Counted from the stretch's first letter, positions 8,755-39,447 are shown. The stretch: DNA of 39,683 nucleotides from Candidatus Desulfofervidus auxilii (GCA_030262725.1 JAJSZS010000017.1:1-39683), one strand, 5' to 3'. Program-made: numbers and translations. The notes: generated by a model not told the origin, from the letters alone.

Positions 8755-9894
8755 TTATGAAGTAAGGAAAATTTTTTGCATAGTTTTTACGCCTATACCT
8801 GGCGTTAAAGAATATCCTAACTCAATTAATACTCGTTCTAAAGCAGCAATTACCATTATTAAATCTTGTTCATCTACATAGCCCATATGAGAAATACGAA
8901 AGATTTTTCCTTTAAGTTTAGCCTGACCACCAGCAATAATAATACCATATGCCCGTAAACGTTTCACTATCTCTTGAGCATCAATACCTTTTGGCGCTAA
9001 AACAGCAGTTAAAATTTCTGAAGGATTTTCTTTTGTAAAAAGCTCTAATCCCATAGCCTCTATTGCCTTTTTTACAGCTAAAGAAAAACGTTGATGTTTA
9101 GCAATAATATTTTCAAGACCTTCTTCTTTAATGCGCTTTAAATTCTCTCTTAAACCCAAAATTAATGAAACAGCAGCAGTATAAGCAGTTTGATTTTTAG
9201 CTAAACTTTTTCTTTCTTTAAGGAAGTCAAAATAATATCTAGGCAATTGTGCCTTTTTTACAAATTGCCAAGCTTTATCACTTAAACATACAAAGGCTAA
9301 TCCTGGTGGTAGCATTAAAGCCTTTTGAGAACCAGCAACAACAACATCTAAATACCATTCATCTGTTCTAATTTCCATCGCTCCTAAAGCAGAAATAGCA
9401 TCAACTACAAGAATAGTATCCTCTTTCTGATGAATAATTTCTCCAATTTCTTTTAATGGAAATTTTACACCAGTGGAGGTTTCATGAGCTTGAATAAATA
9501 CTGCCTTTATCTCAGGGTGTTTCTCTAATGCTTCAGCAATCTGAGCAATCTTTACACATCTTCCCCATTCAATATCTATATTAATGGTTTTTACTCCATA
9601 TGCTTCACAAATCTCTGCCCAACGTTCACCAAACTTCCCTGCTCTTACAACTAAGGCTGTATCTCCTGAAGAAAGAGTATTAGTTACTGCTCCTTCCATA
9701 GCACCAGTACCAGTAGAGGCAAATATTAAAACATCATTTTTTGTTTGAAACACATACTTTAAGTCTTCTTTTACTTCAGCAAGAATAGAGGCAAATTGTG
9801 GCGAACGATGGTGGAGAATGGGTACTGCCATTGCCAATAAAGTTTCTGGTGGTACTGGAGTTGGACCCGGAGTAAAAAGATAATATTTTTTCAT
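8755..9894 (-). CDS. Class V PLP-dependent aminotransferase (serine/alanine-glyoxylate type)
   Basis: 379 residues with the alanine-glyoxylate/serine-pyruvate aminotransferase pattern: FTPGPTPVPPE at the N-terminus, HHRSPQF, the cofactor-contacting STGTGAMEG, the aspartate in LVVDAISALGA (D165) and the PLP lysine K191 (AGSQKALMLPPG). It is the first gene of the operon and lies 11 nt before serA. In many bacteria this pairing suggests a role as the phosphohydroxypyruvate (serine pathway) aminotransferase in place of SerC. No SerC or SerB is in the window, so this is inference; glyoxylate-glycine transamination is the other option. Start ATG preceded by GGAG. Confidence 0.88.
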   Translation of the reverse strand: MKKYYLFTPGPTPVPPETLLAMAVPILHHRSPQFASILAEVKEDLKYVFQTKNDVLIFASTGTGAMEGAVTNTLSSGDTALVVRAGKFGERWAEICEAYGVKTINIDIEWGRCVKIAQIAEALEKHPEIKAVFIQAHETSTGVKFPLKEIGEIIHQKEDTILVVDAISALGAMEIRTDEWYLDVVVAGSQKALMLPPGLAFVCLSDKAWQFVKKAQLPRYYFDFLKERKSLAKNQTAYTAAVSLILGLRENLKRIKEEGLENIIAKHQRFSLAVKKAIEAMGLELFTKENPSEILTAVLAPKGIDAQEIVKRLRAYGIIIAGGQAKLKGKIFRISHMGYVDEQDLIMVIAALERVLIELGYSLTPGIGVKTMQKIFLTS

Positions 9895-12264: not shown

Positions 12265-13785
12265 ATGGCCAGAAGAATTTTAATTTTTGATACTACTTTA
12301 CGCGATGGAGAACAAGTGCCAGGTGCAAAACTTAATATTGATCAAAAATTGATTGTAGCTAAGCAATTAGAAAAATTAGGTGTAGATATTATTGAAGCTG
12401 GTTTCCCTGCCTCTTCTCCAGGTGATGCTAGAGCTGTTAATTTAGTAGCTCAAAAAGTAAGAAAACCTATTATTGCTGGACTTGCTCGAGCATTAAAAAG
12501 AGATATAGATATTCTTTGGGAAGCAATAAAAGACGCAGAAAGACCAAGAATTCACGTATTTTTAGCTGCTTCAGACATTCATATTGAAAAAAAACTACGT
12601 TTGGATAGACAAAGAGCTCTAGAAATGGCAGTAGAAGCAGTTAAGTATGCTAAAAAATATTGTTCAGATGTAGAGTTTTCACCAGAAGATGCTACCAGAG
12701 CAGATTTTGATTATCTTTGTCAGGTAGTAGAAGAAACTATTAAAGCAGGAGCTACAGTTATAAATATTCCGGATACTGTAGGTTATGCTATTCCTGAAGA
12801 ATTTGGTGAACTTATCCGACGTTTAAGGGAAAAAGTGCCAGTTACAGATAAAATTATTCTCAGTGTACATTGTCATAATGATCTTGGATTAGCCACTGCT
12901 AATAGCATTATAGCTATTCGTAATGGAGCTACACAAGTAGAATGCACTATTAATGGTATTGGTGAAAGGGCAGGAAATGCTGCTTTGGAAGAAATAGTTA
13001 TGATTTTAAAAACAAGACCTTATTATTTTGAGGTAGAAACAAATATTGTTACTCAAGAAATTATTCCTACAAGTCGTTTAGTTAGTCGTATGATGAACTT
13101 ACCTGTCCAGCCTAATAAAGCTATTGTTGGAAGTAATGCATTTGCTCATTCTTCAGGTATTCATCAAGATGGTATTCTTAAGGATCGCCGCACTTATGAA
13201 ATCATAAGACCAGAAGATGTGGGAGCTCAAGCCCATCTGCTTGTACTTACAGCACGCTCTGGCAGAAGGGCATTAAAACAAAAATTAACAGAACTGGGCT
13301 ATGAACTTTCTGATGAAATATTTGAACGGACTTATAATCGTTTTTTGGCAGTGGCTGATAGAAAAAAAGAGATAACAGCCGAAGATTTAAAATCCATTGT
13401 GGAAGTAGAGCTTTCTAAAGTACCTGAAACTTATAGTTTAGTTAAAATGGTAGTTACAACCCAAGCAATGAGTGGCAATGACTTGCCATTAGCTATTCTT
13501 ACTTTATCTAAAGGAGAAGAAAATCTTACTCAAGCAGCTGTAGGTAATGGCCCTGTAGATGCAGTTTTTAAATGTATTAATCAGATTACAGGTCTTCCTA
13601 TAAATCTTCTTGATTATACTGTAGAAGCTGTAACTTCTGGAGCTGAAGCTTTAGGAGAAGCTACAGTCAAAATAGAAATAAATGGCCAAATTATAAGTGG
13701 AAGGGGTACTAGTCCAGATGTAATAGAAGCCAGTGCTAGAGCATATTTAAATGCAGTTAATCGCTATTTCGCCCTTTATAAATAA
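12265..13785 (+). CDS. leuA: 2-isopropylmalate synthase
   Basis: First step of leucine synthesis: condenses 2-oxoisovalerate with acetyl-CoA. 506 residues: a TIM-barrel HMGL-like domain starting FDTTLRDGEQVPGAKL, with the metal-binding VHCHNDLGLA (H202, H204) and NGIGERAGNAALEE, then a C-terminal LeuA allosteric domain (about 385-506, ALGEATVKIEINGQ). SSGIHQDGILK is the expected linker motif. A clear GGAGGA precedes the ATG, 9 nt after the kinase stop, so it may be read from the same transcript as the cytochrome and kinase. The other leu genes are not in the window. Citramalate synthase is a less likely alternative, given the standard LeuA length and motifs. Confidence 0.93.
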   Translation: MARRILIFDTTLRDGEQVPGAKLNIDQKLIVAKQLEKLGVDIIEAGFPASSPGDARAVNLVAQKVRKPIIAGLARALKRDIDILWEAIKDAERPRIHVFLAASDIHIEKKLRLDRQRALEMAVEAVKYAKKYCSDVEFSPEDATRADFDYLCQVVEETIKAGATVINIPDTVGYAIPEEFGELIRRLREKVPVTDKIILSVHCHNDLGLATANSIIAIRNGATQVECTINGIGERAGNAALEEIVMILKTRPYYFEVETNIVTQEIIPTSRLVSRMMNLPVQPNKAIVGSNAFAHSSGIHQDGILKDRRTYEIIRPEDVGAQAHLLVLTARSGRRALKQKLTELGYELSDEIFERTYNRFLAVADRKKEITAEDLKSIVEVELSKVPETYSLVKMVVTTQAMSGNDLPLAILTLSKGEENLTQAAVGNGPVDAVFKCINQITGLPINLLDYTVEAVTSGAEALGEATVKIEINGQIISGRGTSPDVIEASARAYLNAVNRYFALYK

Positions 13786-27357: not shown

Positions 27358-28592
27358 TTTAATCTTTCTACTATAAGCTCTGTAATCCTCCTCCCTTTAA
27401 GACCAATTACTGTAAACTTAAGATTCTCAATTTGTATTGTTTCTCCTTTTTGTGGCAAACGACCTAAATGAGCTAAAATGAGTCCTCCTACTGTATCTTC
27501 TTCTGCTTTAAGATTTGTTTTAAAAATATAGTTAAAATCCTTTAAAGACATTTTTGCCATCACTTTATATTTATAAGGAGCTATCTCTTTATACCATTTT
27601 TCAGCCATATCATATTCGTCATATATCTCTCCAAACAATTCCTCTAATAAGTCTTCCATTGTAATGAGACCTACTACACTACCATATTCATTAACAACCA
27701 TAACCATAGCTATTTTTTTTCTTTGCATTTCCCAAAAAAGCTCCTCTCCTTTTTTAGTTGACGGAACAAAATAAGGTTGAATAAATTTTTCTTTTAAATC
27801 CTTTACAGTTCCTTCAATTTTATTTAATCCCAATAAAGTTTTTGTATGAAGGATACCAATAATATTATCTGGATCCCTATCATATACAGGAATCCTTGAA
27901 AAACATTGATAGTTAAGAAGCTTTTTTAACTCTTTAATTGGTGTATCTAATGAAATGATAAACATATCTGGACGAGGCACCATAATTTCAGATACAGATT
28001 TATGTCTGAAGCGCAAAAGATTGGCTATAAACTCTCTCTCAATAATCTTAAACCCATCTTCATGAGAAGCGCTTTCTAAAAGTTGTAAAAATTCATTATC
28101 TAAAAAACAAGGTTCTTCCTTAGAAACAGCAGGCAAAGGATAAAGTGCAATATTCACCACATATCTAATAAAATTCCGGATAGGAGTAACTAATTTTACA
28201 AAGAAATTAATAAATGGAGCTATTTTTAAAGAAAAACTAGGAGCTTTTGTAAGAGCAAATGCCTTAGGAACAATCTCTCCCCAAAGCAATAAAATCGGTG
28301 TCATTACAGCAAGCGTAATCCATTTTCCTTTTTCGTCATAAAGAGCAATAGCAACAGAGGTAGCTAAAGCTGAAGCTGTAACATTAACACTTTCATTGCC
28401 AATAAGAATAGAAATAAGTAAATGAGCAGGTTTTTCTAAAAGAGAAGCTATTATTTTTCCATTTTTAGTCTCTTTAAGCTTTAGTATTTGGTAACGAGTG
28501 AGTGAAAAAAGAGCTGTTTCTGAACTAGAAAATAAAGCAGAAAAACATAAAAGGATGAAAATAAGGATTAACTTAAAATAAATAATTTCCAT
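27354..28592 (-). CDS. CNNM/CorC-type membrane protein with CBS pair (first copy)
   Basis: 412 residues with the same order as the adjacent gene: DUF21 helices ([21 protein letters not shown]), CBS pair ([58 protein letters not shown]) and a CorC/HlyC domain ([19 protein letters not shown]). The two genes are tandem paralogues but clearly diverged, so they may work as a heterodimer or on different ions. The start lies 20 nt inside the 3' end of lon. Confidence 0.88.
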
Positions 28593-32233: not shown

Positions 32234-33025
32234 ATGTCATACAAAGGAAAAAAACCAAAAGTAGCTATTGGCAATTCTTTAGCCCATTGTAAACAAGTCA
32301 TTACTTTAGGAGTAAGAACTAATTTTTCTGACTATAAACCATGGGAGCAAAAATTAATAAGAGAAGCAGAAAAAATTTATTATCCCACCAGTTTTTATGC
32401 TGACCTTTTTAAATCTATGGGAAAACCCACATTTCCTAGTTTTGAATGTTATGCTTATGCAATGGACAAAATAAAACAAACTACACTTTTTAATTTATTA
32501 AATATTCCTCATCCTTATACACGCATATTTTATGGTGAACGTCAAAAGAAAAAAATTCTAAATTATTTTTCTTATCCATTTATTGCCAAAATTCCAAGAG
32601 CTTCAGCTCTTGGTGAAGGTGTTTTTTTGATTAAGAATGATAAAGATCTTTTGGAATACAACCGCAAGACAAAAATAGCTTATATTCAAGAATATTTAGA
32701 AATTGAAAAAGATATTAGAGTGGTGCTTATAAATTATAAAGTAGTACTTGCATATTGGCGTATAAAAAAGCAAGATGAATATCGCTGTAATATAGCTCAA
32801 GGCGCTGAGATAAGCTTTGACCCTGTACCTGAAGAAGCTATAGAATTAGCTATAAAGACAAGTAAACTTTGCAACTTTAATAATGTTGGTATTGATATAT
32901 GTATTCATAATGGAAAACTCTATGTGCTTGAAGCCAATATGGTATATGGAAAAAAGGGATTTCAAAAAGCAGGCATTGATTACAAAAAACTCTTAGCTGA
33001 GATGCTAGAAAGAGGTGAAATATAG
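32234..33025 (+). CDS. RimK-like ATP-grasp protein
   Basis: 263 residues with an ATP-grasp fold: N-terminal pre-ATP domain (about 1-90), ATP-binding lysine region PFIAKIPRASALGEGVFLI with a glycine loop (about 115-133), hinge AYIQEYLEIEKDIRVVLIN, and the C-terminal metal-binding strand pair VGIDICIHNGKLYVLEANMVYG (split: GIDIC, then LEANMVYGKKG), which gives the expected D..E.N ligands. The family joins carboxylates to amines or thiols using ATP, often on peptides or ribosomal proteins. The substrate is not predictable. Its 3' end touches that of a convergent radical SAM gene with no gap. Confidence 0.82.
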   Translation: MSYKGKKPKVAIGNSLAHCKQVITLGVRTNFSDYKPWEQKLIREAEKIYYPTSFYADLFKSMGKPTFPSFECYAYAMDKIKQTTLFNLLNIPHPYTRIFYGERQKKKILNYFSYPFIAKIPRASALGEGVFLIKNDKDLLEYNRKTKIAYIQEYLEIEKDIRVVLINYKVVLAYWRIKKQDEYRCNIAQGAEISFDPVPEEAIELAIKTSKLCNFNNVGIDICIHNGKLYVLEANMVYGKKGFQKAGIDYKKLLAEMLERGEI

Positions 33026-34117
33026 CTAAATTGCATCTTTTGCTTTTTCTAACAAAATCTTAAGCTCTTTGTCATTTTTAATAAAAACACCTAAATTTCC
33101 AAGTCTCACATTTTCAAGTCCTGCATCTTTTACTTCATAATATGCATTTAACATCTGTTTTAAATTTGGTGGAGGAACATCCCTCATTTTATATTCTGGG
33201 AAAAAGGCAAGAATTGTAAAAGGTATTTTTTTATCAACCTTTGAAATAATTTTTGCTATTTTTCTTATTTGATCTTCCTCAACCCAACCTGGAATATATA
33301 AACTTAAGACCTCAAGAACAAAGTCTCTTTTAAGAATTTCCTCAGGTAGCTTCAAAATCCATTCATTTGAAACACCTGTTAATTTTTTATGAATATCTGG
33401 ATCATATGCCTTTATATCAAGCCAGAAAGAATCAACTCCAGCCTCTTTTAAAATGTCAAGATTTTTAGGAGTAAGCCCATATCCATTTGTCTCAAAGAGT
33501 ATCCATAAAGGCAGACCTTCTTCCTTTATTTTTTCAGCACATTTCACATAAAAATCTGGCTTACAGCCTAAATCTCCACCTGTAAAAGCAATAATATTTC
33601 TCGCTGGTCCAAGCCCTTGAGGTGATAAAACTATTTGATTTGGTTCTAATTTATTAGGACACAGCTCCCCTCTTCTCCCCGTAGGCTTTAAATAAAATTT
33701 TTCTTTAACTTTTCCTTGTTCAAAAACATGAATAAAATCTGGCTCAACGCACACACCACATCCTCTACAAAGGTCAAGTGCATGAAATGAAGTAGCTCTT
33801 TCTCTTGGTTCATAATATGTTATTTTTTCAGCATATTTTTTAGCTAGAGTTAAAATGTCATTAGGAGAAAGCCACTTGCCATCTGCATATTGAGTAAAAC
33901 TCCAAGAATGACACTTTAAACATTCTAAATTACAACCAGATTGATATATTGAAAAATAATGCTCAGGCCTTGAAAGATGAGCAGATTTAATCAGCCTATA
34001 AGGAATACCATCTTTATATTTTAAAGTTAATTCACATGCCCTACCCTTTTTCCTATTATGCACTAAACATTTTCCAGGTCTAAATCCTTGTTTTAATAAT
34101 TCACAATCATTTTGCAT
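33026..34117 (-). CDS. Radical SAM protein with an extra cysteine cluster
   Basis: 363 residues. The SAM-binding 4Fe-4S motif is C62-x3-C66-x2-C69 (SGCNLECLKCHSWSF), followed by the GGD(L) SAM loop (IIAFTGGDLGC). An inserted segment between them has C117, C120 and C123 (LCRGCGVC) and C153 (GELCPN), which could hold a second Fe-S cluster. It resembles PflA-type activating enzymes and COG1180/COG1313 proteins. ETNGYGLT and WLDIKAYDPDIH are typical of that group. The substrate is unknown. The ATG sits 6 nt after a good promoter, again without a leader. Confidence 0.85.
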   Translation of the reverse strand: MQNDCELLKQGFRPGKCLVHNRKKGRACELTLKYKDGIPYRLIKSAHLSRPEHYFSIYQSGCNLECLKCHSWSFTQYADGKWLSPNDILTLAKKYAEKITYYEPRERATSFHALDLCRGCGVCVEPDFIHVFEQGKVKEKFYLKPTGRRGELCPNKLEPNQIVLSPQGLGPARNIIAFTGGDLGCKPDFYVKCAEKIKEEGLPLWILFETNGYGLTPKNLDILKEAGVDSFWLDIKAYDPDIHKKLTGVSNEWILKLPEEILKRDFVLEVLSLYIPGWVEEDQIRKIAKIISKVDKKIPFTILAFFPEYKMRDVPPPNLKQMLNAYYEVKDAGLENVRLGNLGVFIKNDKELKILLEKAKDAI

Positions 34118-34864: not shown

Positions 34865-35083
34865 CTACTTCTGTGATTCTTTTGTTTTGATAGTTAGGCT
34901 TTTCCCATCTCTCATTTCCTGTAACCACTTATCAATATCTTCTTTTATAAATCTCCACTGATTAGCAATTTTCACAGCAGGGATTTTTCCTTTCCTTGCC
35001 ATCTTATAAAGAGTAGATTTTCCTATTTTCAAATATCTTGCGGTCTCTTCAAGTGTCATTATTTCAGAGAAACCTTCCTTCAT
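34865..35083 (-). CDS. Excisionase-like helix-turn-helix DNA-binding protein
   Basis: 72 residues from the ATG at 35081-35083, which has AAGGAG 8 nt upstream. Contains a winged MerR-like (HTH_17) motif: MTLEETARYLKIGKSTLYKMARKG (split: LEETARYLKIGKSTLY, then KMARKGKIPAVKI), then NQWRFIKEDIDKWL. This is the pattern of phage and transposon excisionases and small regulators. A longer form from ATG 35123-35125 (86 residues) is also open and would be leaderless from the promoter just upstream. It marks the left edge of the accessory region; its targets are not known. Confidence 0.8.
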   Translation of the reverse strand: MKEGFSEIMTLEETARYLKIGKSTLYKMARKGKIPAVKIANQWRFIKEDIDKWLQEMRDGKSLTIKTKESQK

Positions 35084-35130
35084 AGCTTTAACTCCTTTTT
35101 GCCAGAGCTTATTATTGTTTAACATTGCAT

Positions 35131-35159: not shown

Positions 35160-35197
35160 GTCTATTTTTAAAAAATTTTCCTTTTCAAGGTGGACTT

Positions 35198-35380
35198 CCT
35201 CAAGTACTTATTTTTTACTTGACTTTATCTTGGTTTTGCAGGATAGTTTTTAAGAAAGAAAATATTGGAGATTTAAATTTGCCAAGTCTTTTAAAAAGAT
35301 TATAAGAAGAATTCTCTTTTTGTTTGACTTTGTAAAGGGTGGTGTATAATATATCAAAGAATAAGTTTGTGTATTTATAA
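35198..35380 (+). repeat. Left ~180-bp inverted repeat flanking the R-M cassette
   Basis: Pairs with 38719-38898 in reverse orientation, about 90% identical by eye with roughly a dozen mismatches and three 1-nt gaps. The core from 35246 is exactly matched for more than 50 nt (it includes TTGGAGATTTAAATTTGCCA), and a second block around 35310-35352 is also exact (AGAATTCTCTTTTTGTTTGA). The outer edge begins CCTCAA and the inner edge ends GTATTTATAA. No target-site duplication is obvious outside the pair. Confidence 0.9.
35324..35350 (+). promoter_or_regulatory. Inward promoter in left repeat, for the methyltransferase
   Basis: TTGACT (35324-35329), 15-nt spacer, perfect TATAAT (35345-35350). 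The spacer is 2 nt shorter than ideal. The start point would be near 35357, giving a leader of about 155 nt before the methyltransferase ATG. The whole element is identical in the right repeat. Confidence 0.5.
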
Positions 35381-35414
35381 ATGACAAATAAGGATGATCT
35401 AATTGAAATTTAAG

Positions 35415-35449
35415 CATGCAAGTCGATTAATTTTAATAATTAATGCATG
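35415..35449. promoter_or_regulatory. Imperfect palindrome in methyltransferase leader
   Basis: CATGCA (35415-35420) is mirrored by TGCATG (35444-35449), with further partly matching ATTAAT/ATTAAT inside. It could be a hairpin in the leader RNA or an operator for autoregulation of the R-M genes. No controller (C) protein gene is present in the cassette. Confidence 0.35.
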
Positions 35450-35513
35450 GTAAAGTAAAATTTTTTAAAGAAAAAATACAATATAAAAATATTAAAAAAG
35501 CTTAACAACTAAC

Positions 35514-37931
35514 ATGAATAAAGAAAAACTTCAACTTTATTATCAAATTAATCGAGATGCTGCTATTGAAATGAGTTATAAACCAAGGCAATCTTATATT
35601 GCCAGATGTAAAGAATTGAATTTAGATTCACCCAAAATTTTCTATGATCCAAAAATAAGAAGTTTGCATCCTTGGCTTGCTAGAAGACCTAGGAGCATTG
35701 CAAGATTTTCAATAATTTTAGCTTCAAATTCTCACGTTTCAATATTTAATCTCGATGAAATATACAAAAAAGTTAAAAATGGTTACCCTCCCTTAATATC
35801 CTATACAAAATCTAACCAAATAATAAATAAGAAATTAATATTATGCGACCCAATGGCTGGAGGAGGTACAATACCTTTGGAAAGTATAATATCAGGGTTA
35901 GAAACAATAGCTTTTGATTATAATCCAATAGCTTACTTAATCTTAAAGGCAACTATAGAATATCCATTAAAGTTCAAAGAAATGTTAAGTGATGCTGTGA
36001 GAGAGGAGGCAAGAAAGCTTATAGAATTTGCACATATTAATTTAGGAGATTTCTATAATAAAAAAGATGATGCTTATATTTATACTAAGAGCATTGATTG
36101 TCCATCTTGTAGAAAAAGCTTGTTAATAGCAACAGAGGCGGGAATAAAAGATTTTCTAGATTTGCATCTATCTCAACAGTATTTACCGATAATAAATTCT
36201 AAAAGAAAAGAAGGTATAATTTTAAAAAGAACCGCAAAAACTTTAAAAATTAAATGCACCTTCTGTGGAAATCAATTTGAAATAAGAAAGGAAGAGTTTT
36301 TTAAGGAATGGATAAGTAAACAGAAAAGACTTATGGATTCGATTTTTTCTGGTAAGCTTGATTATGAATTGTTATTAAGTGTACATTCTATTTTTATTAA
36401 AAAGGACACAGATAGAAATTATATAAAAGCTAGCGAAAGTGATAACAAACTACTAATAAATGCTTACGAGTTCCTTGTTAAGAACATAGATGAGCTAAAA
36501 GAATATATACCAATAGATAGAATTCCAAAACAAAATAAAGTTTTTGCTCCATTACTTAATATGGGATTAGAGTATTGGTATGAAATTTTTAATCCAAGAC
36601 AATTGTTAGCTTTAGCAGTCTTAACAAGATACATTAGGAAGAGAGCTCAAGAGCTTACTTTAAAAGATAAAGAATTTGGGGCTGCTATTTCTTTGTATTT
36701 ATGCTTTGGATTAAGTAAAATGATAGATTTTAATACCATACTAACTACTTGGAATGCTACAAATAAAAGTATAAGAGATACTGTAGGACAATACGCAAGA
36801 TCTAGAAAAGTTGAATTAAATATAGAATATTGCGAAGCAGTAGTTCCTTACAAAAATCTGCCATGGGTTTTTGAACCATACTCAACAAATAGAACTGGAG
36901 GGGGTATATGTCCAGTTGTTGATGAGCTTTGTAGGCAAATGGAGGGTATTAATACTAACATAAAGGTATTCCAATTCGATGCTAAAAAAATTCATCTATT
37001 AAACAAAAAAATAGATTTAATTAATGTTGATCCTCCATATTTTGATCAACATATATACAGTGATTTAAGTGAATTCTTTTGGATGCTTGCAAGAATTTCT
37101 TTAAAAGATTTAATCGGAAGTTATTTCTTCAATGAAGAAATAAATGGAAAGAAAAGTTACGAGTATATTAACTGGAATCCCAGTTCTTCTTTTGTACCAA
37201 GAAAAGATGAGTTAATAGTAAGAAAAGATAATTATGTAGAAGAAGTTAAGAAATATAAGAAGAATATGACAGAATTTTTTAAAAGTGCGTATAAGATTTT
37301 AAATGATGATGGGAAACTTGTTCTTTGGTTTACTCATAAATCATGGGAAGCTTGGGAAAGTATCCTTTATTCTCTTTACATTTCTGGTTTTAAAGTCGAA
37401 AGTTTTTATCCTTTTGTATCAGAACATCCAACAAGAAGTGTCAGTATGCAAGGGGAACCTAAACTTAACCGAACTATTATAATAATAGCTTCTAAGCAGA
37501 CAAAGCAGATAAAAAATATTGAAAATGATGTTTTTCATTTTTGTTTAAGAGTTTATGAGTATTTGAGGTATGCAAAAATTATGTCAACAGAGGAAATTGA
37601 GCTATGGGAAAAAGCTATAACCTTAATGGCTGCAGCTACAGCTAGATTAACAGTGCAAGATTTTAAAGATAAGGAATCTGCTTTTAAGAATGAAATACTT
37701 CCTAAAGGCATAATATTTGGATTAATGTGTTTATTAAAAATATTAGGGAAGGAGAAAGAGATAGAAAATTTAGACGCTCAAGAGAAGGTAAATTTGTTTT
37801 TACATATGCTAGAAAAGTTATTTGGAAGAGTTAGAATGGACTTAGCAAAATATATATGTAAATTTTACAATACGTCTTTTAATTTCATCAAAAATGGGCA
37901 AGTAAAGTTAAAAAGTTGGACAGAAATTTAA
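35514..37931 (+). CDS. DUF1156-type zinc-ribbon DNA methyltransferase
   Basis: 805 residues. N-terminal DUF1156-like block (LHPWLARRPRSIARFSIILA, 51-70), SAM-binding motif I CDPMAGGGTIPLES (111-124), a zinc ribbon C196-x2-C199 and C248-x2-C251, and catalytic motif IV VDPPYF (505-510). A further motif (LVLWFTHKSWEAWE) lies near 607-620. Motif I precedes DPPY by about 390 residues, so a large insertion, possibly the target-recognition part, separates them. DPPY indicates exocyclic amino methylation (N6-adenine or N4-cytosine); the base is not decided. It starts without a clear ribosome binding site. With the endonuclease behind it, it most likely protects host DNA in a type II R-M system. Confidence 0.85.
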   Translation: MNKEKLQLYYQINRDAAIEMSYKPRQSYIARCKELNLDSPKIFYDPKIRSLHPWLARRPRSIARFSIILASNSHVSIFNLDEIYKKVKNGYPPLISYTKSNQIINKKLILCDPMAGGGTIPLESIISGLETIAFDYNPIAYLILKATIEYPLKFKEMLSDAVREEARKLIEFAHINLGDFYNKKDDAYIYTKSIDCPSCRKSLLIATEAGIKDFLDLHLSQQYLPIINSKRKEGIILKRTAKTLKIKCTFCGNQFEIRKEEFFKEWISKQKRLMDSIFSGKLDYELLLSVHSIFIKKDTDRNYIKASESDNKLLINAYEFLVKNIDELKEYIPIDRIPKQNKVFAPLLNMGLEYWYEIFNPRQLLALAVLTRYIRKRAQELTLKDKEFGAAISLYLCFGLSKMIDFNTILTTWNATNKSIRDTVGQYARSRKVELNIEYCEAVVPYKNLPWVFEPYSTNRTGGGICPVVDELCRQMEGINTNIKVFQFDAKKIHLLNKKIDLINVDPPYFDQHIYSDLSEFFWMLARISLKDLIGSYFFNEEINGKKSYEYINWNPSSSFVPRKDELIVRKDNYVEEVKKYKKNMTEFFKSAYKILNDDGKLVLWFTHKSWEAWESILYSLYISGFKVESFYPFVSEHPTRSVSMQGEPKLNRTIIIIASKQTKQIKNIENDVFHFCLRVYEYLRYAKIMSTEEIELWEKAITLMAAATARLTVQDFKDKESAFKNEILPKGIIFGLMCLLKILGKEKEIENLDAQEKVNLFLHMLEKLFGRVRMDLAKYICKFYNTSFNFIKNGQVKLKSWTEI

Positions 37932-37962
37932 CAAACCATTTTAGAAATCCCAAAGGTAAAAA

Positions 37963-38712
37963 ATGAAAAAAGAAACAAAAGAAAAAATTAAAAAATTGGT
38001 GCTAGATTTTGCAAATAAATTAAGTGTTAAAAAGAGAGATTTTACAATTGAAGAGTTGAAGAAAGCATTTCCATTTCATGCTCTTTTCTTTGCTGATGAT
38101 GCTATAATAGCGTTCAAATTGCAAAGGTCAATTGTGACAACATTAGGAATGAAAATATATCCAGAAATAGCAAGAATTATAGCTAAGGATAACTATGAGA
38201 AAGTCTATATTGACCATCCAATAGAAGGAAAAATTTCAGAAGAAAAAGCAAATGTAATAGAAAGAATAATAACAAATCTAAGACAAGGTAGAATCAAGCC
38301 AGATTTTGAAAAAGAAAAGGCCAAAATAAAAAATGCTACAGGAGGTAATTTAGTTAAAAGGAAGATAATAGCGGACATATTCATACAAGACCATGAAGAT
38401 GGCCCATTATTTATGGAAATAAAGTCACCAAGGCCAAATTTAGATGTTTGTGCTGAAAGCAAGAAGAAAATGCTTTATTTTAGAGCCTTTTTTGAAAATA
38501 AAAATCCTCAAGCTTTCATAGGTTTCCCTTATAATCCATTTGTACATAAAAATAAATATGCTCATAATTTTGTTTTCCAAATATTTGATTTTGATAAAGA
38601 AGTACTATTAGGAGAAGAGATGTGGGATAAATTAGGAGGAAACGGCACATTTGCCGAACTTCTTAATTTGTTGGAAGAGTTAAAGGAAGAAATAAAAAGA
38701 ATACTTCGATAA
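37963..38712 (+). CDS. TdeIII-like type II restriction endonuclease
   Basis: 249 residues, 31 nt after the methyltransferase. The catalytic PD-(D/E)xK pattern is D138 (IIADIFIQD) followed 14 residues on by E152-x-K154 (LFMEIKSPRPNLD). Overall layout, length and the SPRPNLD and ENKNPQAFIGFPYNPF phrases fit my memory of the TdeIII endonuclease family, whose founding member cuts GGNCC; the site here cannot be inferred. The stop lies only 6 nt before the right inverted repeat. The gene order M then R and tight spacing let methylation be made first. Confidence 0.78.
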   Translation: MKKETKEKIKKLVLDFANKLSVKKRDFTIEELKKAFPFHALFFADDAIIAFKLQRSIVTTLGMKIYPEIARIIAKDNYEKVYIDHPIEGKISEEKANVIERIITNLRQGRIKPDFEKEKAKIKNATGGNLVKRKIIADIFIQDHEDGPLFMEIKSPRPNLDVCAESKKKMLYFRAFFENKNPQAFIGFPYNPFVHKNKYAHNFVFQIFDFDKEVLLGEEMWDKLGGNGTFAELLNLLEELKEEIKRILR

Positions 38713-38718
38713 AAATTT

Positions 38719-38898
38719 TTATAAATACCTAAACTTACTCTTTGTATATTATACACCACCCTTTACAAAGTCAAACAAAAAGAGAATTCTCCTTAAAATC
38801 TTTTTAAAAGACTTGGCAAATTTAAATCTCCAATATTTTCTTTCTTAAAAACTGTCTGCAAAAACAGGATAAGCTCAAGTAAAAATAAGTAGTTGAGG
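38719..38898 (-). repeat. Right ~180-bp inverted repeat flanking the R-M cassette
   Basis: Reverse-complement partner of 35198-35380. It starts 6 nt after the endonuclease stop and ends at GTTGAGG (38892-38898). Together the two repeats enclose 3,338 bp containing only the two R-M genes. Sequence right of it is visibly richer in G+C and holds a recombinase remnant. Confidence 0.9.
38748..38774 (-). promoter_or_regulatory. Inward promoter in right repeat, antisense to the endonuclease
   Basis: The same TTGACT (38774-38769), 15-nt spacer and TATAAT (38753-38748) as in the left repeat, facing left. Transcription from here would begin about 30 nt beyond the endonuclease stop and run antisense through that gene. 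Confidence 0.45.
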
Positions 38899-38988
38899 CC
38901 TATCAAGAAAGGCAAGCTTGAAGCACAGGCAACGGAAGACAGCCGAAAATGGCTTGTGTCCGAGCACTGGGGGTGGGCTTCATTATCA

Positions 38989-39447
38989 TCAATCCAGAAT
39001 AGGAGAAAGAGATAGTTTTATTTTTCCTGCTTTCTCCCTTGTGCGGGTAAGTCGGAAAAATACTTTGAATGAGTTTGAAACAGCCATTAAAATGGCTTCC
39101 TGATTGACGACTCTTTCAAAATCCGGACAGGCTCTTGATGGGCAAGTTTCTGGAAACTCAAGCAGTTCAACATCTACCTTATCATTGAAGATTTTTGCTT
39201 CTTTTATAAACAGCCTTGCCAGTGCCTGCCTCTCTTTTAGTTCAAGAGAGGGATAAACCTTATAAAATCCTTCAAATCCTTTCTTTATTATCTCAAAATC
39301 AATGACCGTGCTTTCCTTTCTCCTTATTTTAAGCTTATTTCTTCAAGTTTTTTTCTCCAATTCTTCCTTTTCCTTTGACCGCTTATTGACTTCTTCCCTC
39401 ACCTCTATCGGTGGGTTTGTAATTACAGTATAGGATCTTTTTGTAAA
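38989..39447 (-). pseudogene. Serine (large) recombinase C-terminal remnant
   Basis: On the minus strand a frame reads NPPIEVREEVNKRSKEKEEL, meets a TGA, and continues in the same frame as ESTVIDFEIIKKGFEGFYKV (39320 downward), then PSLELKERQALARLFIKEAK and IFNDKVDVELLEF, ending at 38989. The coiled-coil (REE-NKRSKEKEELEKK) followed by 'ERQAL-LFIKE---F-DKV-VEL' is the usual C-terminal layout of large serine recombinases. Dropping one A in the run of seven near 39350 restores KKLEEISLK, so at least one and probably two frameshifts broke it. The catalytic serine domain is absent from the window. G+C is higher than in the neighbouring genes, in line with transfer. Confidence 0.5.

Follow-up and report, generated by a model that had tools for sequence, protein, structure and literature searches.

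A predicted type II restriction-modification pair between long inverted repeats, at a site empty in related genomes, in a Desulfofervidaceae bacterium

Restriction-modification (R-M) systems are thought to spread as selfish units, and, to our knowledge, only a few sequence pairs, mostly of cultured bacteria, clearly document base by base the state before and after an R-M insertion. We describe a locus of Candidatus Desulfofervidus auxilii in which two inverted repeats of about 180 nucleotides (nt), referred to as arms, bracket a DNA methyltransferase gene and a restriction endonuclease gene. The locus lies close to the end of a contig of 39,683 nt (GCA_030262725.1 JAJSZS010000017.1:1-39683), which was analyzed as a whole and is termed the window. 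Comparison with related genomes demonstrated that this cassette was acquired as a block, with the tip of the left arm as one edge. Insertion, empty site and homologues of the gene pair in another domain of life thus come together in a bacterium from a vent, whose family includes the bacterial partners of methane-oxidizing archaea. The accession JAJSZS000000000 has been reported as Candidatus Desulfofervidaceae sp. 2 from a hydrothermal vent in the Pescadero Basin (PMC10553843).

Known R-M units include some that carry imperfect inverted repeats together with short target duplications (Furuta, Abe and Kobayashi, 2010, Nucleic Acids Research 38:2428; summarized in PMC3874152). The present locus resembles them in that a complete R-M system is held in a unit with imperfect inverted repeats at its ends, lacks a transposase, differs in presence between related genomes, and likely carries a short duplication. 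It differs in that the duplication adjoins the left arm only, 73 nt preceding its right copy; as judged from the summary of that work, the host, the arm sequence and the combination of a DUF1156-type methyltransferase with a TdeIII-family endonuclease are new. A second group are the mobile insertion cassettes (MIC/MICE), in which passenger genes are located between inverted repeats derived from insertion sequences (IS), e.g., the qnrS2 cassette with repeats of 22 bp (PMC5444012). These likewise hold passenger genes within inverted repeats, without a transposase, and are inserted into other DNA; however, their repeats are short, IS-derived and occur at multiple sites, whereas the arms described here are 180 nt long, match no IS and occur at a single locus. 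The third group comprises composite R-M units flanked by IS, such as the movement of PaeR7I and the cases with direct or inverted IS cited in PMC3031569, where an R-M pair between repeats could also move jointly. The present arms, however, are without transposase and too short to be IS copies. On the best reading, the cassette belongs to the known sort of R-M unit with inverted repeats, its arms being unique.

The arms and the genes between them

The long inverted repeats noted in a preliminary description of the window were recovered by MAFFT alignment and by a repeat search (for coordinates see Table 1). The left arm and the reverse complement of the right arm differed at 14 of 184 columns, corresponding to 92.4% identity, and BLASTN of one arm against the other returned an E value of 5e-70; the pairing of the arms is far beyond chance. 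Their internal ends fall on the same base (TTTATAAA). Both arms contain a stretch resembling TTGACT...TATAAT that is directed inward and represents a putative promoter, although consensus promoter matches are only mildly enriched in the AT-rich DNA of this region (32 found versus 20.5 expected). The G+C content of arms and genes is 25-29%. RNA families were found neither in the arms nor in the 73-nt piece that follows the right arm.

Between the arms, only two real open reading frames were present, in agreement with the earlier statement that the repeats enclose a methyltransferase, an endonuclease and nothing else. The enclosure had also been called exact. On the right this is the case, as the endonuclease stop codon ends at 38712 and the arm begins at 38718, 6 nt past the stop as had been stated; on the left, however, an AT-rich leader separates the arm from the methyltransferase start. 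The methyltransferase sequence contains the motifs DPMAGGGT and DPPYFD and matched the PADLOC model MTase_II as well as the NCBIfam model DUF1156, the latter below its cut-off. The endonuclease matched PF09520 with an E value of 9e-55, and its conserved block holds the aspartate and the EIK residues (D...EIK) of a PD-(D/E)XK-like site; a search among solved structures yielded no usable template. TdeIII relatives are expected to cleave sites of the GGNCC type, for which an amino-methyltransferase would be an unusual partner. Both reading frames are open across their whole length and adjacent, as is characteristic of a type II system, and the cassette is predicted from its gene content to encode a complete type II R-M pair. 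No transposase gene is present within the 180-nt arms, so that the cassette does not have the structure of a composite transposon, i.e., flanking IS copies with their transposase.

Empty site and archaeal homologues

A comparison with empty sites in close relatives had been proposed in the preliminary description. In a related genome (G004, contig C31), the left flank of the window (to 35193) and the right flank (from 38968) lie next to each other at 32891-33184 and 33186-33890 without the cassette, and a second, inverted copy in the same genome has the same cassette-free junction (28310-28540 and 28176-28308). HotSeep-1, a syntrophic partner of thermophilic methane oxidizers (PMC10553843), provides a comparable junction in which the flanks are joined without the cassette, from 35154/35186 to 38983, the matches being slightly shorter. 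With three short junctions, two in G004 and one in HotSeep-1, against a single long one, an insertion in the lineage of the window is the simpler reading.

In the comparison with G004, left homology stops at 35193/35198 and right homology restarts at 38968/38972. The left insertion edge is therefore the tip of the left arm, while the right edge is located 73 nt outside the right arm. The preliminary description had seen no target duplication, and none indeed adjoins both arm tips. However, a direct repeat matching at 9 of 10 positions brackets 35199-38971, its left copy adjoining the left arm and its right copy being separated from the right arm by the 73 nt; since it does not adjoin the right arm, this putative duplication had gone unseen. 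The probability of finding such a repeat by chance was 0.0006 when real 10-mers of the window were used, 0.001 with random 10-mers, and 0.015 when the first five bases were granted to a G-rich site. The 73-nt segment (53% G+C amid AT-rich arm and island DNA) had no match in the collections searched.

A scan of GTDB identified the same gene pair, in the same order, in two archaea: the Methanophagales archaeon WYZ-LMO13 (PIXU01000213.1), with amino acid identities of 76% for the methyltransferase and 84% for the endonuclease, and the Thermoplasmata archaeon AUK221 (JAGHAD010000130.1), with 74 and 79%, respectively. The labels AUK221 and PB of isolate and contig suggest that the latter stems from the same vent field. 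On the WYZ-LMO13 contig, DNA homology extends from just inside the methyltransferase start to the end of the endonuclease gene and no further; the AUK221 contig starts inside the methyltransferase gene. On neither archaeal contig are the two genes surrounded by the arms or by any further long inverted repeats, and the flanking genes differ (truA-like and diphthine-ammonia-ligase-like genes in the former, an ArsR-like regulator in the latter). The G+C content of the cassette is 35% against 44-49% in the flanks in WYZ-LMO13, and 37% against 41% in AUK221. The ratio of nonsynonymous to synonymous substitution rates (dN/dS) of the pair was 0.05-0.08, with synonymous sites near saturation. This ratio places the gene pair under strong purifying selection and, together with the near-saturated sites, points to a selected unit that crossed domains, albeit not very recently. 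The three sequences are roughly equidistant and do not allow the direction of transfer to be inferred. As the archaeal homologues are without arms, the arms and the R-M pair are separable modules. It had been proposed that relatives carrying the genes in the same place without repeats would speak against a mobile unit; the archaeal pairs do lack the arms, but their locus is not the same. With one R-M pair occurring in Methanophagales (ANME-1 group), Thermoplasmata and a vent bacterium, the exchange of R-M systems between domains in hot sediments becomes open to testing. A fragmentary, apparently decayed TdeIII-like endonuclease gene of about 56% identity (L105:196-487) was present in G401 (contig C165), a further genome from the Methanophagales class.

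Table 1. Position and properties of the cassette features and of the adjacent host island in the window.
Feature	Coordinates	Strand	Remarks
Left inverted arm	35198-35381	+	184 nt; small hairpin at outer tip; TTGACT-TATAAT promoter-like stretch facing the methyltransferase
AT-rich leader	35382-35513	+	132 nt, 80% AT, from left arm to methyltransferase start; not kept in archaeal homologues
DUF1156-type amino DNA methyltransferase	35514-37931	+	805 aa; intact; motif I-like DPMAGGGTIPLES; motif IV DPPYFD
TdeIII-family (PF09520) type II restriction endonuclease	37963-38712	+	249 aa; intact
Right inverted arm	38718-38898	-	181 nt; reverse complement of left arm (92%); promoter-like stretch antisense to the endonuclease gene
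Segment between right arm tip and restart of empty-site homology	38899-38971	.	73 nt; 53% G+C
Putative 10-bp target duplication, left copy	35189-35198	+	GGTGGACTTC; 9/10 match to 38972-38981; from G004 empty site and junction test
Putative target duplication, right copy	38972-38981	+	GGTGGGCTTC; where homology to the empty site restarts
HTH_17 (excisionase-like) gene of the host island	34865-35125	-	left of the insertion; homologous in G004
Host-island segment	38982-39447	-	about 115 bp, then remnant of a large serine recombinase C-terminus (~39092-39447)

Origin of the arms and mode of acquisition

We favor the reading of 35199-38971 as a transposon-like R-M unit that was acquired and is non-autonomous, and about half of our confidence rests with it. 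According to this reading, the gene pair would have spread horizontally in hot sediments, among archaea as well as bacteria, and would have become enclosed by inverted ends belonging to some element; the bracketed unit would then have entered, as a block, an island associated with a serine recombinase and tRNA-Asn in this Desulfofervidaceae lineage. The arms may have acted as recombination ends for a transposase supplied in trans, with the 10-bp near-duplication being the putative target duplication. The 73 nt on the right may have been carried along by an imprecise, one-ended-like right end or may have been added by a later event. After insertion, recombination between the arms may invert the cassette; as each arm bears an inward promoter-like sequence, such an inversion is expected to be neutral for expression.

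The earlier proposal of a unit that moves a complete R-M system without its own transposase accordingly stands as far as the cassette was gained as a unit, as the empty sites demonstrate, with an arm tip as its left edge; it does not account for the right edge. Several observations weigh against the reading we favor. With the right edge 73 nt past the arm, this is not a textbook terminal-repeat insertion, and the junction test identified no direct repeat that adjoins both arm tips. In addition, the arms have diverged more at their tips than at their centers, which are best conserved: the differences between them are concentrated in the outer 47 and the inner 28 columns (scan p ~0.01). Tips bound by a transposase usually show the reverse pattern and are better kept than the center. 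The distribution of differences fits gene conversion between the arms or selection on their center, and fits poorly with tips that are maintained by a transposase. Combined with the inward promoter-like stretches, it is compatible with recombination between the arms.

A further point against an arm-driven mobile unit arose from the search for additional arm copies. In the own genome of the organism, an assembly of 2,268,002 bases in which the window is contig C17, no second arm locus was present, and only weak, AT-rich partial matches were obtained. One of these, considered as a solitary arm (C48:5278-5319; 80% identity over 44 nt), was rejected as a promoter-like stretch on an unrelated contig. 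No arms were detected in 59 relatives, 395 sampled genomes of the phylum, two archaeal genomes, plasmids and phages. Searches of IMG/VR (four patterns) and GTDB (25 fixed bases) were also negative, these being exact patterns that copies diverged by more than about 10% would escape. Likewise, no comparable arm pair was found around 18 other TdeIII-family loci of bacteria, archaea, a plasmid and a phage. Neither solitary arms nor arms with other cargo, which the preliminary description had suggested looking for in related genomes, were thus encountered, and its notion of a mobile family similar to miniature inverted-repeat transposable elements (MITEs) was not sustained. MITEs and mobile insertion cassettes are further characterized by repeats from an identifiable IS and by the presence of at least two copies or of solitary repeats at other loci; here a single copy was found and no IS source was identified for the arms, although highly diverged ends could escape such a search. 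With no second copy anywhere searched, there is neither a family nor a candidate for a trans-acting transposase.

Alternatively, the arms may be what is left of an element that was once larger and either autonomous or composite. They would then be the ends of a transposon with long terminal inverted repeats, or of a pair of IS copies in inverted orientation, and the transposase genes would have disappeared or given way to the R-M pair. The identical inward promoter-like sequence in both arms would be in line with the transposase-promoter end of an IS, and R-M complexes located between IS copies, whether inverted or direct, have a precedent (PMC3031569). Independent deletions in two IS copies would, however, not be expected to leave arms that share their internal end base, and neither the genome and its relatives nor plasmids, phages and the exact scan of GTDB yielded a related IS or arm. 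We therefore regard such a remnant as rather unlikely.

The arms may also have arisen when the upstream (promoter) region of the cassette itself was duplicated in inverted orientation, in place or in the donor; the duplication would now control expression by antisense transcription from the right arm into the endonuclease gene. Each arm contains a promoter-like sequence, the right one being antisense to the endonuclease, and of the 14 differences only 2 fall within the best-kept 105 columns of the arm alignment (scan p 0.01). Regulation of R-M systems by antisense RNA and reverse promoters is known, the latter acting in the control of EcoRI and Eco29kI (PMC3874152). A local duplication, however, would not be expected to place the left insertion edge at the arm tip; in addition, the enrichment of promoter matches is only mild, and neither leader nor arms are kept in the archaeal homologues. 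On balance, this origin also appears doubtful.

Quite improbable, in our view, is a more far-reaching version of the transposon-like unit, in which an undescribed, non-autonomous Desulfofervidaceae element, with the arms as its long terminal repeats, would capture R-M pairs, express them in either orientation from the inward promoters and restrain the endonuclease through antisense transcription out of the far arm. Still harder to accept is a cassette maintained for its inversion, by homologous or recombinase-mediated exchange between the arms, with the flip as its function: arms of 180 nt and 92% identity would be able to recombine, and conversion of the center would leave the differences at the arm ends, but the symmetry of the promoter-like sequences means that a flip changes nothing, and no dedicated recombinase is encoded within the cassette. 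Finally, inverted repeats are a known type of chimera and the window is a contig of a metagenome-assembled genome, but an assembly or amplification artifact (fold-back chimera) is very improbable, as it would have given identical copies rather than arms that differ at 14 of 184 positions, indels included, and as the island is colinear with that of G004 on both sides of the insertion, with coherent genes and flanks.

The host island

The acquired unit is located in an island that has counterparts in the relatives. The segment of about 115 bp to the right of the insertion adjoins a tRNA-Asn gene in G004, HotSeep-1 and a further genome (G003). In G004, the island contains the recombinase in pieces, and a VapB-like antitoxin gene and a PIN-domain gene are still present. 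The HTH_17 gene, the recombinase remnants and the tRNA-Asn junction in the relatives indicate a decayed integrative island. G004 has two copies, in inverted orientation, of the gene region for the C-terminus of the large serine recombinase (L055:9311-9621 and 12490-12800); in the window, this region is represented only by the detached remnant, next to the start of a VapB-like antitoxin gene at the contig end.

On the same G004 contig, inverted repeats of 366 bp (96% identity; L055:4176-4541 and 8955-9320) enclose an R-M pair of the Tsp45I type (L055:4837-6766) and a DUF4209 gene. These repeats are copies of the tRNA-Asn-proximal/HTH segment from the end of the island itself. Like the cassette in the window, this is an R-M system between inverted repeats in an equivalent island; however, the repeat sequence is unrelated to the arms, the R-M genes are unrelated, and the DUF4209 gene is enclosed as well. 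The Tsp45I-type locus is thus a second, independent pairing of an R-M system with inverted repeats in the same type of island. In HotSeep-1, a row of ATPase-like and phospholipase-D-like genes, as identified by eye, is located near tRNA-Asn and the same island segment (L056:3444-9122) and looks like a different defense-type cargo.

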